Of a stretch of 42,420 nt of DNA, positions 33,382 to 41,636 are shown piece by piece. The DNA is taken from positions 1 to 42,420 of the forward strand of contig JAAYZX010000039.1 in the NCBI GenBank assembly GCA_012514635.1, read 5' to 3'. The notes under the pieces are model-generated. The model worked only from the letters and a program-made list of their open reading frames with translations. It was not told the origin of the DNA and did not search any database. Positions within the stretch are counted from its first letter, which is position 1. Every line of letters starts with the position of its first letter. Position numbers and translations under genes: made by a program. The stretch is from Actinomycetota bacterium. Lineage in GTDB: Bacteria; Actinomycetota; Thermoleophilia; RBG-16-64-13.

Positions 33382-33561
33382 CGGAGCTGCGGACATAGGC
33401 CGATCACAATGGGGACCGCAGCCGAAGCGATGAGGCTGCGCGCAATTGTGTCCGAATGGAGCGCTATAGTTGTGGTGTATGGGTGCCGGTGATGGAGCAT
33501 CACGGCGGGCAATGCGGCCGGAAATGGTACGGTGAAACTCGGTCGTCATGGGGAGGGTTGC

Positions 33562-34803
33562 GTGAGATTCATCCATACCGCGGATTGGCAGATTGGGAAA
33601 CCATTTGCGCGAATTGTTGACCAGCGGAAAAGGGTTCTAGCGCAACAGGCACGGTTCAGTGCGGTTGAGCGTATAGGTGAAGTAGCACGGGAAGCGGATG
33701 CGCACTTCGTCGTGGTGGCAGGCGACCTCTTCGATTCCCCACGCGTGGATAGGCCTACGGTGTCTGCCGCATGTGCTGCCATCGGACGGATCGAGATTCC
33801 GGTCATCGCTATTCCGGGTAATCACGACCACGCGGGTCCCGGTAGTATTTGGGAACAAGAATATTTTCTGTACGAACAAAAACAATTGTCCCCCAACCTG
33901 GTGGTACTAACCGAGCCGAGCGCATACCGGATGGAGTCTGCTCTAATCCTGGCCTGTCCGTTGCGGGTGCGTACCAGCTGGACGGATCCAACTGAATGGT
34001 TGTGGTCGGCCGGCGTGGCTCACGAGGAGTCGTCGGTGCCACGTATTGTGCTGGTTCACGGTAGCACCCAGGTGTTCACCGGCATCTGCGAGGATGAGGA
34101 CGAGCCTAATCGTGGCACCACGTCCGGCACCATAGATTTGGAAAAATTGGCGGCATCTTCAATTGACTATGTAGCGCTCGGTGATTGGCATGGGACCAAG
34201 CAAGTTGGACCGAATGCTTGGTATTCAGGCACTCCGGAACCTGATCGGTTCGCCAAGGCCGGTGAATATGATTCGGGGAATGTGCTCGTGGTTGATATTG
34301 AGCCGGGAGGACCCTGCCGGGTCAGACGGGTGGGCACAGGGAGATTGCGTTGGGCCAACTTGAACTTGAATGTGTCCGGGGACTCGGGCGCGCAAAGGGC
34401 TATCGGGCAGATTGCGGACGCTGTGGGTGGTGGAGTCGATGAGGCGCTGCTCAATCTGACCCTAACCGGGACTATTAGTATCGAAACGGCAGGACGGCTT
34501 AAGCAGGAGCTGGATTCGCAGGAAGCCCGTCTTCTGCGGCTGAAACTGGTCAATCAAACCGTAATTGAACCCACGAAAGATGAGTTGCAGTCGTTGTTGG
34601 CCTCCGAGCCCCATCCTCTGGTGGCCAGCGTCGCCGCTCGGCTGCTGGAGATGGCGGCTGGGAACGATGGCGATGCGCAGATTGCGCGCGTTGCGCTGCG
34701 GGACCTATATGTCTCGGTTGAACGGTCGGCCGCGGCGTGTAGTGGCGAGGTCGGTAGGCCGGCATGTGGCACGGCCGGCGGACTATTTGAGGTGTCGGCT
34801 TGA
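33562..34803 (+). CDS. SbcD/Mre11-like metallophosphoesterase with altered metal site
   Basis: This 413-residue calcineurin-like phosphoesterase is of the Mre11/SbcD type. Visible motifs are HTADWQIG (D8, Q10), AGDLFDS (D55), IPGNHDH (N88, H89), VLVHG (H166) and LGDWHG (D208, H210). In Mre11 the first motif is DxH and the last GHxH. Here Gln replaces the first His and Asp replaces the first His of GHxH, changing one ligand of each metal. It may still bind metal with altered specificity. The GTG at 33562 is preferred over one at 33532 because GGGAGG lies just upstream and the homologous N-terminus starts there. The TTG start of the ATPase partner overlaps its last bases. Confidence 0.85.
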   Translation: MRFIHTADWQIGKPFARIVDQRKRVLAQQARFSAVERIGEVAREADAHFVVVAGDLFDSPRVDRPTVSAACAAIGRIEIPVIAIPGNHDHAGPGSIWEQEYFLYEQKQLSPNLVVLTEPSAYRMESALILACPLRVRTSWTDPTEWLWSAGVAHEESSVPRIVLVHGSTQVFTGICEDEDEPNRGTTSGTIDLEKLAASSIDYVALGDWHGTKQVGPNAWYSGTPEPDRFAKAGEYDSGNVLVVDIEPGGPCRVRRVGTGRLRWANLNLNVSGDSGAQRAIGQIADAVGGGVDEALLNLTLTGTISIETAGRLKQELDSQEARLLRLKLVNQTVIEPTKDELQSLLASEPHPLVASVAARLLEMAAGNDGDAQIARVALRDLYVSVERSAAACSGEVGRPACGTAGGLFEVSA

Positions 34804-37538
34804 AGCTGATATCCGCTACGGTTCGCAGTTATCGCGTACATCGTGAGGTCACAGTGGATTTTGACCCCGGGCGTACGCTAATTGGCGGTCCTAACGAGTC
34901 CGGCAAGAGCACGCTGATCGAGGCCGTGCATCGGGCATTGTTCCTCAAGGCCCAGGTAACCGGAGAGCCTCAGCGCAGTATGGTTTCGCGCACGTATCCG
35001 GGTCATCCTGAAGTGGAGCTGGAATTCGAAGTGCAGGGTGTTCGCTACCATCTTCTTAAACGCTTCAGTGGCCAGACCGGTATAGCGCGGTTGACACGAG
35101 CGGGCGGCAGTACTTGGTATGCCGAAGAGGCGGAAACCGCCCTGCGAGACCTCTTGGGAGTTCCGGATGTGGGCGGCGGTCGTGGCGTCGGTGAGCGTGT
35201 TCGTCAGCAATGGGCGCACCTATGGGTATGGCAAGGCACCAGCACCCAGTCCCCTTGTCATTCTATTCGCGAACAGAATGATCGCCTTCTCCAGGAGTTG
35301 CAACGAAGGGGTGGGGCGGTGGTCATGCAGTCGGAGTTGGATGGTCGGGTTGCGGCAGAATTTGCAGAGAAAGCGACCGGCATGTTCGTGTCTGGTGGCC
35401 GCCCTCGTGCGGGCTCGGACTTGGATCGGGCGGCGCGAGAGAAGACTGAGGCTCAGACTGTATACCAAAGGTCGACAGAGACGCTGGATGCGCTGAGGCA
35501 AACGGTGGCCGAGCACGAAGAAGCCGACGCCACCATTTCCCGGACCACAAAGGATCTTGTTGAAATAGAAGCTCAGCTCAAAGCCGTCTCAGAGACGCTG
35601 GCATATGTTGAGTCTTTGCGGCGCCAAAAGGAGTTGCAGGAGAAGGCGGTGCAGGATTCCGCGAAAGCATTGGACCTGCTTGAGAAGGCGGAAGACAGCA
35701 TTCGAAGAGTGCAAGATGCGCTTGTGCAGAACCGGAGTCATTTGAGGCCCGAAGAAGGAAATCTTCGTGCATTGGAAGACAAGCGCAAAGACTTGGAGCA
35801 TGAACTCAACGAGGCGTGGCGGGCATACGAAGCCGCTATTGGAGTCTCGCGCAATGCCCGCCGAACACGCGATCTGGCACTGGCAAGAGTCACTTGGTTT
35901 GAGCAGGATGAAGCCTGCCGTCGCCTCAAAGAAACGAGCAGGCGTGTGAGCTCTTTGGAGGAGGAGATTGAGCAGGCCCGCAGGAAGTTGGCGAGAATTC
36001 CGGGTATCACGGAACAGGTGCTCAACGAGTTGCGTCGACTCGAGGCGGAAGCGGCCCAAGCCGAAGCCGCTCTGTCCGGTATGGCGGCGGAGATCGAAGC
36101 CGTGGATGTCGGTATTCCGGTGGTTGTGGCGGGTGAAGTGTTGGCGCCCGGCCGGTCGCGGACGGTTACCGAACCCACAGAAGTGCGTGTGGGGGATAGT
36201 GTTACGCTTCGTATACGGCCGGGCGGGGGGCTGGCCCTTGCCCAAGCTCGGGAACGCCTGCACCGTGCCGCTGCGGTCCTGCGTGATGCCTTAGAGACGG
36301 CAGATGTGGATTCGCCGGAGAAGGCGGCCGAGGCGTGGTCGCTCCGGCGTGCTCTCGAGAGCGACATCGGTGAAGCAGAGGCTACTCTTCGTGCGCTTCT
36401 GCCAGAAGGCCAAAGCCCGGCAACGGAGCTGCAGTCGGCCCAAGAAGGCCGTTCCTCCGCCGAAGCAGAGATCGAACGATTGACTGAACAGCTGGGAGAG
36501 GTAATTTCTCCGTCGACGCGGGTCGATGCACAGGCCGGGCTTCGGGAGCAGGAGAAGGTGTTACCGATAGCCGAAGATATGGAAGCTGAGACCGCAAGAC
36601 GGTGGGAAGACCTGAAGGTAGGTTTGGAACAGACCGACAAGCGCTACACGGAGTGTCGAGAAGCTGTGGCCCGATTGAAGAGCGGAATTGCCGTCTTAGA
36701 AGTCGAGGAACGGCTGCTTCTGGAGGCCCACGGCAATGAGCAGGTCAGGGGCCAAGAGTTGGCGGCGGCCCACGCGGTTAGAAGTCGGGCGCAGGCCATA
36801 CTGACTGATACACGCAGGGAGTTGGAGAGGTTGCAGCCTGCGCAACAGGAAGCCGATCATGATCGTTTGGAGCGGGCTCAAACAAAGACCAAAGCGCAGC
36901 ACTCCGATGCTGTGGTTGCCAAGGAGGTTGCTTGGCGGAGGCTCCGGACCGAGGGAGCTGAGGATCCGTATGCGGTGTTGGCTCTAGCCGAAGCCGATTT
37001 CGTCGCAGCATCTGAGCATCACGAGGCCGTGCGTCGTGATGCGGAAGCCGTACGACTACTCGATCGCCTGTTCTCTGAGGAACAACGGGCCTTGTCGGAA
37101 CGGCTGTCGCGGCCATTGGCCGAAGTGATTGAGTCCTACGTACAGTGCGTCTTTGGGCCCGACACGCAGGTGACGGTGGGACTCAATGAATCGGGCGTAA
37201 CCGGAATCGAGGTGATTCGTCCGGGAGAGCACGGCGCCACCGACTTCAACTCGTTGAGCGAAGGCGCTAAGGAGCAGGTAGCCGCCGCCGTGCGCCTGGC
37301 GATAGCGCAGCTTTTGGCGACGAATACTGATGAAGAGAAAGGATCCGAATCCGTGGGTTCGCTCCCCGTGGTTTTTGATGACGCGTTTGCCTACTCCGAC
37401 CCCGAGCGCGTACACACCCTTCAGCGTATGCTGGACTTGGCGGCCCTGCGCGGGTTGCAGGTGATCGTCTTAACCTGCAACCCCTCTGACTACGCGTCTC
37501 TGGGCGCTAAAGAAGTCGTGCTGCGGGCATCCGTTTGA
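34800..37538 (+). CDS. SbcC/Rad50-like SMC-family ATPase without zinc hook
   Basis: This 912-residue ABC/SMC ATPase has Walker A GPNESGKST at 30-38, long coiled coils at about 205-430 and 480-780, signature LSEGAKEQ at 819-826, and Walker B VVFDDAF at 857-863, with a second Asp where Glu is usual. Rad50 and SbcC have a CxxC zinc hook at the tip of the coiled coil. Here the middle holds a beta-rich segment (about 436-478, with VVVAGEVLAPGR and VRVGDSVTLRI) and no CxxC. The start is TTG, overlapping the nuclease stop, with GAGGTG upstream. It probably works with the preceding phosphoesterase on DNA ends or hairpins. Confidence 0.85.
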   Translation: MKLISATVRSYRVHREVTVDFDPGRTLIGGPNESGKSTLIEAVHRALFLKAQVTGEPQRSMVSRTYPGHPEVELEFEVQGVRYHLLKRFSGQTGIARLTRAGGSTWYAEEAETALRDLLGVPDVGGGRGVGERVRQQWAHLWVWQGTSTQSPCHSIREQNDRLLQELQRRGGAVVMQSELDGRVAAEFAEKATGMFVSGGRPRAGSDLDRAAREKTEAQTVYQRSTETLDALRQTVAEHEEADATISRTTKDLVEIEAQLKAVSETLAYVESLRRQKELQEKAVQDSAKALDLLEKAEDSIRRVQDALVQNRSHLRPEEGNLRALEDKRKDLEHELNEAWRAYEAAIGVSRNARRTRDLALARVTWFEQDEACRRLKETSRRVSSLEEEIEQARRKLARIPGITEQVLNELRRLEAEAAQAEAALSGMAAEIEAVDVGIPVVVAGEVLAPGRSRTVTEPTEVRVGDSVTLRIRPGGGLALAQARERLHRAAAVLRDALETADVDSPEKAAEAWSLRRALESDIGEAEATLRALLPEGQSPATELQSAQEGRSSAEAEIERLTEQLGEVISPSTRVDAQAGLREQEKVLPIAEDMEAETARRWEDLKVGLEQTDKRYTECREAVARLKSGIAVLEVEERLLLEAHGNEQVRGQELAAAHAVRSRAQAILTDTRRELERLQPAQQEADHDRLERAQTKTKAQHSDAVVAKEVAWRRLRTEGAEDPYAVLALAEADFVAASEHHEAVRRDAEAVRLLDRLFSEEQRALSERLSRPLAEVIESYVQCVFGPDTQVTVGLNESGVTGIEVIRPGEHGATDFNSLSEGAKEQVAAAVRLAIAQLLATNTDEEKGSESVGSLPVVFDDAFAYSDPERVHTLQRMLDLAALRGLQVIVLTCNPSDYASLGAKEVVLRASV

Positions 37539-37575: not shown

Positions 37576-37674
37576 GAATCCATTAAAGGAATGATAATCG
37601 GCCCATAGGGCGGCCGGGCTCGATCCCCAAAATATTACTGTATGACACATTACCGGAGGCGGAGGACGACGCGC

Positions 37675-39195
37675 ATGAAACAGGCCATCTCGCTTAGGGT
37701 CAACAGCGACGAACACGTTGTCTCGGTTGATCTGGATCGTACGCTGGTTTCGGTGCTCCGCGAGGATCTGGGACTGACGGGAACTAAGGTGGGATGTGGG
37801 GGAGGCGACTGCGGGGCGTGCACCGTTCTAATCGATGGCAGAACGGTGACCTCGTGTCTGGTGCTTGCCGTGGAAGCCGAGGGCCGAGAGATTATGACGG
37901 TGGAGGGACTTGCTCGATCCGGCACAGAGCTGCATCCCATTCAGCAGGCCTTCGTAGAGAAGGGCGCCATCCAATGTGGGTTCTGCACGCCGGGCATGGA
38001 GATGTCCGCATATTCCCTCCTGTCGCGGGATAGAAGACCCACAGAGGCGGAGATCAGGATGGGGTTGTCCGGCAACTTGTGCAGATGCACAGGTTACAAT
38101 AAGATAGTTGAAGCAGTCGAGGTGGCTGCGATGACCAGGGGGGAGCCGGCCGGCGCGTCTGCGTCGGCCGGCAGCTTGCTTTCCGGGGCGGGAGCGGAGG
38201 ATCATGAGGGTGGTCCCGTGTCCCCGTTGGCCGGCGGCGGTTACACCGCGCCGGCCACAGTAGAAGAGGTGTGTCGCCTCCTGGCGGACGCGAACGGCAA
38301 CGCCGTGCTCATCGCCGGTGGTACGGACTTGATACCCAAACTCAAAGCCGCCGCGCCGCAGGCGCGGCCGACGGTCATTATTGGGCTCCGCCGCATCCCT
38401 GAGCTCGCTGAATTGGTCTGTGACATAACAACCGGTCTGCGCATTGGCGCGATGGTTCGGCTGGCGGATGTGGGGGACCACCCAGGTGTCCGGGCCCTAT
38501 ATCCGGCGGTGGCGGAGGCTGCTGCGACTATCGGCACTCCCCAGATCCGCAACATGGGCACCGTTATTGGCAACCTCTGCAATGCGGCACCCTCAGCTGA
38601 CAGCGCACCGGTGCTTCTGGCGCTCGATGCAGTTGTGCACGTAGCTGGCCCGACTGGTCGTCGGTCTCTTCGTCTTGCGGAGTTCTTCCGGGGACCTGGA
38701 GCTACGAGTTTGGGGCCGGCGGAGATAGTCACTGCGCTTGAGGTGCCTCCGCCCGCACCGCGGTCCGGACTCTCATACCAGCACATGTCGCAACGCGGTC
38801 GTGTTGATATAAGCGCCGTCGGTGTGGCCGCCTCTGTGATACTTGCCGACGACGGTTCCTGCAAGCAGGTGCGTATTGTTCTGGGTGGTGTGGGTCCTAC
38901 TCCGCTGCAGGTGCCCAGCGCCGAGACCTTGCTGGAGGGTGCGGCTCTTGATGCTGAGGTCATTGACAGTGCGGCCGAGGTTGCGGCCGACGCCGCGCGG
39001 CCCATCAGCGACGTTCGCGCGTCCGTCGGTTACCGTCTGCGCATGGTACGGGTGCTTGTCGCGCGGGCGTTGGCCGAAGCAATGGCGCGGGCTTCGGCCG
39101 ACGGCCCGAGCTGTTCCTCGTCGACCGGCGAGTCAATCTGTGGTGAGATATCGGCTGATCCCGACAGTCCCGCTGGAGAAGGGAGGCAGCCATGA
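37675..39195 (+). CDS. molybdenum hydroxylase, fused FeS and FAD subunits
   Basis: This 506-residue fusion combines a CoxS-type two-[2Fe-2S] subunit (residues 1 to about 155) and a CoxM-type FAD subunit (about 190-480). Cluster ligands are C41, C46, C49 and C61 (GCGGGDCGAC...SC) and C101, C104, C136 and C138 (QCGFC...CRC). The FAD motifs are LIAGGTDLIP near 212 and TIGTPQIRNMGTVIGNLCNA. It transfers electrons from the molybdenum subunit encoded next. The joint (about 155-185) is a Gly/Ala/Ser linker encoded partly by a palindrome. Separate genes are the norm in CoxMSL enzymes; XdhA-type fusions are known. The ATG at 37675 follows GGAGG. Confidence 0.92.
   Translation: MKQAISLRVNSDEHVVSVDLDRTLVSVLREDLGLTGTKVGCGGGDCGACTVLIDGRTVTSCLVLAVEAEGREIMTVEGLARSGTELHPIQQAFVEKGAIQCGFCTPGMEMSAYSLLSRDRRPTEAEIRMGLSGNLCRCTGYNKIVEAVEVAAMTRGEPAGASASAGSLLSGAGAEDHEGGPVSPLAGGGYTAPATVEEVCRLLADANGNAVLIAGGTDLIPKLKAAAPQARPTVIIGLRRIPELAELVCDITTGLRIGAMVRLADVGDHPGVRALYPAVAEAAATIGTPQIRNMGTVIGNLCNAAPSADSAPVLLALDAVVHVAGPTGRRSLRLAEFFRGPGATSLGPAEIVTALEVPPPAPRSGLSYQHMSQRGRVDISAVGVAASVILADDGSCKQVRIVLGGVGPTPLQVPSAETLLEGAALDAEVIDSAAEVAADAARPISDVRASVGYRLRMVRVLVARALAEAMARASADGPSCSSSTGESICGEISADPDSPAGEGRQP
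38145..38172. repeat. palindrome at the FeS-FAD fusion joint
   Basis: GCCGGCCG (38145-38152) and CGGCCGGC (38165-38172) pair, with an inner CGC/GCG after one mismatch and a GTCT loop. It encodes part of the linker between the two fused domains, where an intergenic region would lie in unfused relatives. Confidence 0.6.
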
Positions 39196-41636
39196 CCCGC
39201 ATTGAGCCTCGCGACGTCATCTCACGCCGCTACGATGCCGGCGCCGCCACCGAGCCCACTCTCATCGGGCGGGACCTGCCGCGGGTGGACGGCCCCGACA
39301 AGGCGGCCGGCGCCGCCCTCTACACCGACGATCTCCGCCTGCCCGGCATGCTCCACGGCCGGCTCCTGCGCAGCCCGCACGCTCACGCCCGCATCGTGAA
39401 CATCGACACCTCGCGCGCCGCTGCTCTCAACGGGGTCAGGTGCATAATTACCGGTCGTGACATCCCGCTGGTGCGGTTCGGCAACTGGCGCCTGATGCCG
39501 GACACGCAGGATCAGCATGCGTTGTGCATCGACAAGGTGCGGTACATCGGGGACGAGGTGGCTGCGGTGGTGGCCATTGACGTGGATACGGCCGAGGAGG
39601 CACTGTCACTCATCAAGGTCGAATATGAGTCCCTCGACGCGGTATTCGAGGTTCTCTCCTCCCTTTCTCCGGAAGCGCCGCTGCTCCACGAGGAACTCTC
39701 TGACAACGTGAGTGTCAACCGTCGCATCGAATACGGTGACCCCGAGCAGGGCCTCGCCGAATCTGATCTCATCTTGGACAACACCTTCACCGTTCACGCC
39801 GTGAGTGCTGCGTATCTGGAACCGTGCTCTGCGCTGGCTCGTTACGAACCTGGGGGCCGCTTCACCGTGTGGAGCTCCACTCAAGTGCCCTATATTCTGC
39901 AGTGCATGTTGGCCGCCACTTTGGGTGTGCGTGAGAACGATGTGCGTGTGATCAAACCGGCTGTGGGCGGTGGTTTCGGGGGCAAGATGGAGTTGCGGGC
40001 CTGGGAATTCTGTGCCGCGTTTGCCGCCCGCGAGACCGGCCGTCCCGTCAAGTTTACGCTTTCGCGCGAAGAGGAGCTTGCTTACGGGCGCCGTCGCCAC
40101 CCCATGACCATTCACTCTCGGGTTGGTTTTCGTAAGGATGGGACGTTGGTGGCCAAGGATCTTGAGATCCTCCTGGACGGGGGAGCATACAATGCCATGG
40201 GTCCCACCGCCACGTTCCTCTCAGGCAACTTCGGGGCCATGCTCTACCGTTATCCCAGCTACCGCTACTGGGGTAGGCACGTATACACGAACAAACCGCC
40301 GGCCAGCGCCATGCGAGGCTTTGGAGCGCCGCAGTCGCTCTTTGTCTCCGAGTCACAGATGAACATGGCGGCGAAGCAACTGGGGATCGATCCCATCGAG
40401 ATCCGCATAAAAAACGCCATGCGCACCGGCGACGTGATACCGGATGTGGCCACCATCTCCAGTTGCGGATTCATCGAGTCATTGGAGAAGGCGGCCGAGA
40501 TCAGCGGTTGGCACGAGAAGCGCCGCGCCTTCCGCGATAAACTTGCGGCCGGCTCCGCCGCGCCCACGGCGTCGGGAGCCGCGGCCGCCTTGGCTCCTCG
40601 CCGTCTAGTCCGAGGACTAGGCGTCGGTTGCTACAGCTTCATCTCCGGTGGGGTGTTCAACTGGTTCAATACGCAGTACCCGTTCTCAGCCGCTGAGGTA
40701 CGGGCTTTCAGTGACGGCACGGTCCACCTGTTGACCATGGCCGCCGATATCGGGCAGGGGTCGGACAGCGTGTTGGTGCAGATCCTGGCCGAGGAGTTGG
40801 GCCTCGACCCCGGCGACATCCGCCTCACCGCCGGAGACACAGCCATGACTCCGCAGGCCGACCTGGGCACGTGGGGCAGCCGGGTGACGCTGATGGCCGG
40901 CAATGCAGTGCTCGATGCCGCGCGCAAGATCAAAGAGGATCTGTTCGGGGCGCTATCGGCGCGGTTTGGGCTCAACGTCATCTATGATTTGGAGTGTCGC
41001 GATGGTCGCGTCCAGGTCAAAGGCCGGCCTGATCGCGGCCTGGCCTTCGGCGAGGCCGTCGCCATGGTCCAGAAGTCGCGCCGGGGGGAACCGCTCATCG
41101 CTCACGGGTACTACACGCCTCGCGGCAAGGGCCTGGTGACGCCGGCCTTCAGTTTCGGTACACAGGTAGCGGAAGTGGAAGTTGACCTTGATACCGGACA
41201 GGTCCAGGTCCAGAAAATGTGGACGGCCCACGATTGCGGCGTACCCCTCAACCCTATGGGAGTGGAAGGGCAGTTGGAGGGATCCATTCACATGGGTCTC
41301 GGCTACGCTCTGTACGAGCAGTTCGCCATGGAGGATGGGCGTACGCTCAACACCACTTTCCTAGACTACAAGATACCGACGGCCCTCGACATGCCCACGG
41401 GTGAGTCCGTTACCATCGAGACCTACGAACCCGAAGGCCCCTTCGGTGCCAAGGAGGCAGGCGAAGGGCTCGTATCACCTACAGCGCCGGCCATAGCCGA
41501 GGCGGTTTATCACGCCACAGAATATCGCTGCATGGACCTGCCTATCACACCGGAGAAGATCCTGGCCGGACTGGATGAGATCACATCACACGGTGACACC
41601 ACGAACCATCCGCCCACAGGGGGAAACCTCACATGA
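39192..41636 (+). CDS. molybdenum hydroxylase, molybdopterin-binding large subunit
   Basis: This 814-residue subunit of the xanthine dehydrogenase family has GRDLPRVDGPDKAAG at the N-terminus, GGGFGGKMELR from residue 259 and SAMRGFGAPQ, with no AYxCSFR copper loop of CO dehydrogenase. The ending FGAKEAGEG places the catalytic Glu near E758. The lack of the CO-type loop argues for a hydroxylase of an aromatic, purine or hydroxybenzoyl-CoA-type substrate. It overlaps the preceding gene by an ATGA junction and is followed the same way by a hydantoinase-B-type gene. The substrate is not readable from the sequence. Confidence 0.93.
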   Translation: MTRIEPRDVISRRYDAGAATEPTLIGRDLPRVDGPDKAAGAALYTDDLRLPGMLHGRLLRSPHAHARIVNIDTSRAAALNGVRCIITGRDIPLVRFGNWRLMPDTQDQHALCIDKVRYIGDEVAAVVAIDVDTAEEALSLIKVEYESLDAVFEVLSSLSPEAPLLHEELSDNVSVNRRIEYGDPEQGLAESDLILDNTFTVHAVSAAYLEPCSALARYEPGGRFTVWSSTQVPYILQCMLAATLGVRENDVRVIKPAVGGGFGGKMELRAWEFCAAFAARETGRPVKFTLSREEELAYGRRRHPMTIHSRVGFRKDGTLVAKDLEILLDGGAYNAMGPTATFLSGNFGAMLYRYPSYRYWGRHVYTNKPPASAMRGFGAPQSLFVSESQMNMAAKQLGIDPIEIRIKNAMRTGDVIPDVATISSCGFIESLEKAAEISGWHEKRRAFRDKLAAGSAAPTASGAAAALAPRRLVRGLGVGCYSFISGGVFNWFNTQYPFSAAEVRAFSDGTVHLLTMAADIGQGSDSVLVQILAEELGLDPGDIRLTAGDTAMTPQADLGTWGSRVTLMAGNAVLDAARKIKEDLFGALSARFGLNVIYDLECRDGRVQVKGRPDRGLAFGEAVAMVQKSRRGEPLIAHGYYTPRGKGLVTPAFSFGTQVAEVEVDLDTGQVQVQKMWTAHDCGVPLNPMGVEGQLEGSIHMGLGYALYEQFAMEDGRTLNTTFLDYKIPTALDMPTGESVTIETYEPEGPFGAKEAGEGLVSPTAPAIAEAVYHATEYRCMDLPITPEKILAGLDEITSHGDTTNHPPTGGNLT

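Follow-up and report, generated by a model that had tools for sequence, protein, structure and literature searches.

Results

A nuclease gene and an ATPase gene at the locus

The window, by which we mean the whole stretch of 42,420 nucleotides that was analysed, carries an Mre11/SbcD-like nuclease gene followed at once by the gene of a Rad50-like ATPase. The features are as follows.

33550 to 33557, forward strand: GGGGAGGG, read directly; probable ribosome-binding site, 4 bases 5' of the GTG at 33562
33562 to 34803, forward strand: Mre11/SbcD-like metallophosphoesterase, 413 aa, GTG start (PF00149, E 1e-10; AF2 pLDDT 91.2; Foldseek PDB)
33589 to 33591, forward strand: codon CAG of Gln10, replacing the His of DxH (translation, alignment, conservation in relatives)
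34183 to 34185, forward strand: codon of Asp208, replacing the first His of GHxH (translation, alignment, conservation in relatives)
34348 to 34566, forward strand: capping-type domain, residues ~263-335, strand-helix-strand-helix-strand (AF2 secondary structure; placement as the Mre11 capping domain suggested by the fold match)
34576 to 34743, forward strand: C-terminal helices, residues ~339-394, probable ATPase-binding part (AF2 secondary structure; role suggested by SbcD/Mre11 architecture)
34800 to 37538, forward strand: Rad50/SbcC/YhaN-like ATPase, 912 aa, TTG start, P-loop GPNESGKS, signature LSEGA, no CXXC (AAA_23, E 5e-13)
36087 to 36218, forward strand: hinge beta domain of the ATPase, residues ~430-473, at the place of the zinc hook (AF2 pLDDT 94.8; profile)

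We favour the nuclease start at GTG 33562 over the in-frame GTG at 33532 on the strength of GGGGAGGG just before it. At the junction of the two genes, the TTG of the ATPase overlaps the stop codon of the nuclease by 4 bases. Molybdenum hydroxylase genes (a FAD/2Fe-2S subunit and a MoCo-binding subunit) adjoin the pair at 37642-41636; they are metabolic and unrelated.

Active site and fold of the nuclease

Translated from GTG 33562, the nuclease carries the motifs HTAD8-W-Q10, GD55, GN87-H88-D89, VH166G and LGD208-W-H210-G. Two of the seven ligands in the full Mre11/SbcD set (DxH, GD, GNHD, H, GHxH) are thus replaced, the His of DxH by Gln10 and the first His of GHxH by Asp208, just as a first-pass annotation of this DNA had read them. 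Its numbering of the retained residues D55, H166 and H210 is also correct, while its N88 and H89 are off by one, since the Asn and His of GNHD are residues 87 and 88. As is established from Mre11 structures, the residue at the position of Gln10 is a metal 1 ligand in Mre11, and that at the position of Asp208 a metal 2 ligand. The usual histidines might have been found at displaced positions on alignment, as the annotation had itself pointed out, and none was: against SbcD/Mre11 structure chains (7dog) DWQ falls on DWH and GDWH on GHLH without gaps, and the alignment with T4 gp47, in which GDWH falls on GHFH, agrees. Shifted histidines are ruled out by these alignments, and T4 gp47 itself, having DxH and GHFH, is no precedent for GDxH.

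The AF2 model of the nuclease (pLDDT 91.2, pTM 0.87) consists of a phosphoesterase core, a capping-type domain and C-terminal helices, that is, the two-metal calcineurin-like fold with capping domain that marks the Mre11/SbcD superfamily. The best 50 Foldseek PDB matches listed for it are all Mre11/SbcD chains, with E values down to 2e-15 and target TM-scores up to 0.71. Against TIGR00619 (SbcD), where the cut-off is 77.65 bits, the window nuclease reaches 44.5 and 40.1 bits. It shares with SbcD/SbcC the Mre11 fold, the capping domain, the C-terminal helices, an adjoining long-coiled-coil ATPase, and five of seven metal ligands together with the catalytic His, but differs in having DxQ and GDxH and in scoring only 40-45 bits.

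Relatives, conservation and distribution

We sought relatives in 397 genomes of the phylum, in plasmids, in viral contigs and in genome contigs (494 candidates, 80 kept). They occur in records named Planctomycetota, Verrucomicrobiales, Prochlorococcus/Synechococcus, Chlorobium, many Proteobacteria, Actinomycetes and others, and the plasmid search gave 125 plasmid records that contain them. NCBI labels the relatives 'DNA repair exonuclease' and the neighbour 'AAA family ATPase'. The full pattern D,Q,D,N,H,H,D,H occupies the eight site positions in 101 of 146 extracted relatives, across phyla. Among 57 diverse relatives Q10 and D208 are each at least 90% conserved, and neither the remaining ligands nor the catalytic His88 vary; in a set of 92 family members from many phyla, 93% retain Q10 and 93% retain D208. 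The same 92 members conserve R31, P85, D142, R161, G167, E226, G239 and G303, at which SbcD and YhaO mostly differ. The annotation's view that the protein marks a separate subfamily and not a decaying one is borne out: the family is a single clade (SH-aLRT 96) in which the other ligands are invariant, and decay is ruled out by the conservation of both changes, and of those other ligands, among relatives. We found no paper describing a DxQ/GDxH Mre11 group among open-licence PMC papers, and this branch of Mre11/SbcD nucleases, which is widespread, is apparently undescribed.

Within the tree, the window protein groups with a protein from a Chromatiaceae MAG (53% identity) and with one genome of its own family (SH-aLRT 98), and the gene is carried by only 2 of the 18 genomes of the window's order. 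Given this cross-phylum grouping, the patchiness within the order and the many plasmid copies, horizontal transfer is the likeliest explanation for the scattered spread.

History of the two ligand changes

In a tree built with the two ligand columns (10 and 208) masked, all bacterial carriers of the Gln or the Asp form one clade (92 rows, SH-aLRT 96). The outgroup sequences closest to it are YhaO-like proteins and L048, an H/H protein with GHWHR. Six members (L020, L027, L080, L082, L095 and L103) combine Gln10 with the usual GHxH, in the form GHWHS or GHWHG, and others (L031/L037/L046, L084, L091 and L110) combine His10 with GDxH. The D208 rows form one group, with a support of only 69. Parsimony requires five steps at position 10 and one at position 208, and the most economical history, read from these sequences, is that Gln probably preceded Asp, which arose once, with Gln reverting to His four times and Asp never. 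Co-change is absent in five independent pairs. The annotation had seen in these replacements a coordinated alteration of both metal sites. It is right that two ligands of different metals are changed; that they changed together, in coordination, is what the Q/H and H/D members and the tree speak against. Since the tree gives this history and the independent pairs show no co-change, the co-occurrence of Gln10 and Asp208 reflects mainly shared ancestry and not repeated coupling. The four reversions to His10 suggest, moreover, that the exact ligand at position 10 may matter little.

Phage proteins offer a separate instance of the Asp. Several SbcD-like proteins on IMG/VR contigs (L131-L134, L140, L144 and L145) have GDxH with a normal DxH, a further one (L138) has DxQ with GDIH, and another (L136) has GGIH. 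They share with our family the Asp at the same place in GDxH, but they lie on other branches of the tree, and their GDxH appears to have been acquired separately from that of the bacterial clade, a placement made unsure by long branches.

The ATPase partner and its hinge

The annotation had overlooked both the ATPase partner directly downstream and its unusual hinge. The partner has the ABC-type ATPase head of SbcC/Rad50, with P-loop and signature, encoded next to the nuclease. The same arrangement holds in 70 of 70 relatives with a full-length partner, and in none of these 70 partners does the middle of the coiled coil contain a CXXC zinc hook, whereas canonical SbcC proteins of the same phylum have a CPVC or CLVC hook in 7 of 7. 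A profile of the family's ATPases scores YhaN at 68-111 bits versus 8-32 bits for SbcC. Where the hook would be, a six-stranded beta domain of ~45 residues is confidently predicted. A profile recovers it from 79 loci, which cover both main branches; in the Q/H members and in the basal H/H member L175, where the profile gives no score, a similar hinge stretch can be seen by eye. The domain has no match in Pfam, and its best Foldseek matches are mostly FHA domains, all of them weak (E 0.07 or worse). A hinge resembling half of an FHA domain is thus a lead suggested weakly by the predicted model, not a result.

Apart from the ATPase no neighbour recurs beside the nuclease, defence genes included, and a defence-island context was rejected for this reason. 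The sole repair neighbour is a RecC-like gene (exonuclease V gamma; named by eye), which lies directly downstream of the ATPase at four loci (L055, L081, L090 and L124, in Chlorobium and Variovorax).

Absence of canonical SbcD

In the window genome, which is 98% complete, no SbcD scores above the TIGR00619 cut-off, the best match being the window nuclease itself, below the cut-off. Across six taxonomic families of the phylum, canonical SbcD is present in 1 of 27 carriers versus 37 of 47 non-carriers (exact stratified P 4e-10 by genome) or, by genus, in 1 of 15 versus 26 of 33 (P 9e-6), a contrast which counts motif-verified carriers only, the 47 phylum genomes that match at E 1e-15 including YhaO-like genes (L180-L182), and which may be inflated, as some match-free non-carriers are unlisted; the genomes are, besides, related to one another, and the table was compiled by hand. 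One carrier, G186, has both the family nuclease and a canonical SbcD. Within a genus, a carrier and a genome with SbcD stand side by side in three cases (G303/G313, G157/G252 and G015/G014). Outside the six families none of 27 carriers has SbcD, but in the family of one of them, for which Variovorax was taken as the centre, SbcD is too rare anyway (15 of 151 genomes) for this to bear out the exclusion. The window nuclease and its relatives appear to take the place of the standard SbcCD complex in some bacteria and are a likely functional substitute for it.

Discussion

Our analysis identifies a real, conserved variant of Mre11-Rad50. We think it probable that the two proteins make up a distinct complex of this type, an ATP-driven DNA-end nuclease that replaces SbcCD and works with a two-metal site modified by Gln and Asp. 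How might such a complex operate? The first protein would be a metal-dependent DNA nuclease of Mre11 fold, and the second a Rad50-like ATPase with two long coiled-coil arms that meet, not in a zinc hook, but in the small FHA-like beta hinge. In SbcCD, binding of ATP by the heads closes off the nuclease until DNA ends cause the complex to open, whereupon the two-metal site cleaves (PMC6265447). By homology, the heads of our complex would close and open with ATP and so gate the access of DNA ends to the nuclease, going through the same sequence of closure, opening on DNA ends and cutting. Blocked, hairpin or broken DNA ends would be cleared in this way in the stead of SbcCD, which the window genome lacks. 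At the active site, metal 1 would be coordinated by the side-chain oxygen of Gln10 and metal 2 by Asp208, so that two metals are still bound, with one extra negative charge, while D8, D55, N87, H88, H166 and H210 would do their usual work.

Gln as a ligand of metal 1 has a precedent in another family. ADPRibase-Mn has a D[V/I]Q motif in which Gln replaces the His of motif I; in a docked model its Gln27 coordinates metal 1, and the Q27H mutation lowers efficiency about 11-27-fold (PMC4334965). The likeness is confined to the site: ADPRibase-Mn belongs to another subfamily, acts on ADP-ribose and CDP-alcohols, and has no Rad50-like partner.

It is possible, though we would not call it probable, that the ligand changes are neutral: Gln and Asp would serve adequately in place of His, having been inherited from an ancestor in which each became fixed once, and the enzyme would retain ordinary SbcD chemistry and metal use. 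Gln and His codons differ by one base, the Gln arose once and the Asp once in bacteria, four reversions to His at position 10 left D208 unchanged, with no co-change, and the phage proteins combine GDxH with DxH. Against such neutrality, the retention of both residues in 93% of 92 members, together with the residues found only in the family, argues for a site that has been re-tuned.

Re-tuning could be towards another metal pair (e.g. Mg2+, or a strict need for Mn2+) or towards another substrate, such as RNA ends or small nucleotides; the annotation had proposed a change of this kind, and we regard it as somewhat unlikely. Asp is a harder, charged ligand in comparison with His, additional family-specific residues lie close to the motifs, and ADPRibase-Mn, with its D[V/I]Q, strongly prefers Mn2+ over Mg2+ (PMC4334965). 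On the other hand, the Q27H mutation of ADPRibase-Mn left substrate preference unaltered (PMC4334965), and conservation of the Rad50-like partner favours DNA ends as the substrate.

A role of the pair in defence against phages or plasmids, as a module akin to Lamassu or another SMC-type system, would account for the scattered distribution, the copies in 125 plasmid records, the cross-phylum relative at 53% identity and a weak match of the ATPase, at its P-loop, to LmuB. We nevertheless consider it improbable: PADLOC has no match for the nuclease and matches the ATPase at the P-loop or coil only, defence genes do not recur beside the pair, and the way in which the pair and SbcCD exclude each other in several families speaks for a housekeeping function. 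That the nuclease has lost catalysis and serves the ATPase as a structural or DNA-binding subunit is very improbable even with two of seven metal ligands different from Mre11, because pseudo-enzymes normally lose residues of the kind that are invariant here in 57 diverse members, and because E. coli SbcCD H84Q is nuclease-deficient (PMC6265447), H84 corresponding by its motif to the window's H88, a residue that a dead enzyme would be unlikely to keep.

A distinct DNA-end nuclease complex remains our preferred reading, and it bears on how Mre11-Rad50 is understood more generally. The metal ligands of Mre11 are usually treated as fixed, and mutants of the active-site His serve as nuclease-dead controls. 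A natural family, spread over many bacterial phyla, in which two ligands have been replaced stepwise and the zinc hook dispensed with, offers a ready means of finding out which elements of the Mre11-Rad50 design are indispensable. In addition, many proteins now annotated as 'DNA repair exonuclease' and 'AAA family ATPase' could be distinguished from SbcCD.

The closest known system, both in the nuclease tree and by the ATPase profile, is YhaO/YhaN, for which our controls L167-L169 were so named from motif and architecture. YhaN likewise has no zinc hook and has the P-loop GPNE[AS]GKS or GENESGKS. YhaO, unlike our nuclease, keeps DxH and GHxH, and the hinge of YhaN consists of two hydrophobic, membrane-like stretches where our partner has a beta domain. 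One might go further and set the complex beside the zinc-hook SbcCD and the membrane-hinged YhaON as a third architecture among bacterial Mre11-Rad50 complexes, with half-FHA-like beta hinges possibly completing each other across the dimer, a Gln/Asp-modified site of different metal preference, and repeated replacement of SbcCD; we offer this only tentatively. As for the YhaO/YhaN-like pairs themselves, the ATPases of L167-L169, and also those of L017, L180 and L181, lack a zinc hook and have hydrophobic hinge stretches, which suggests a membrane-anchored Mre11-Rad50-like complex.
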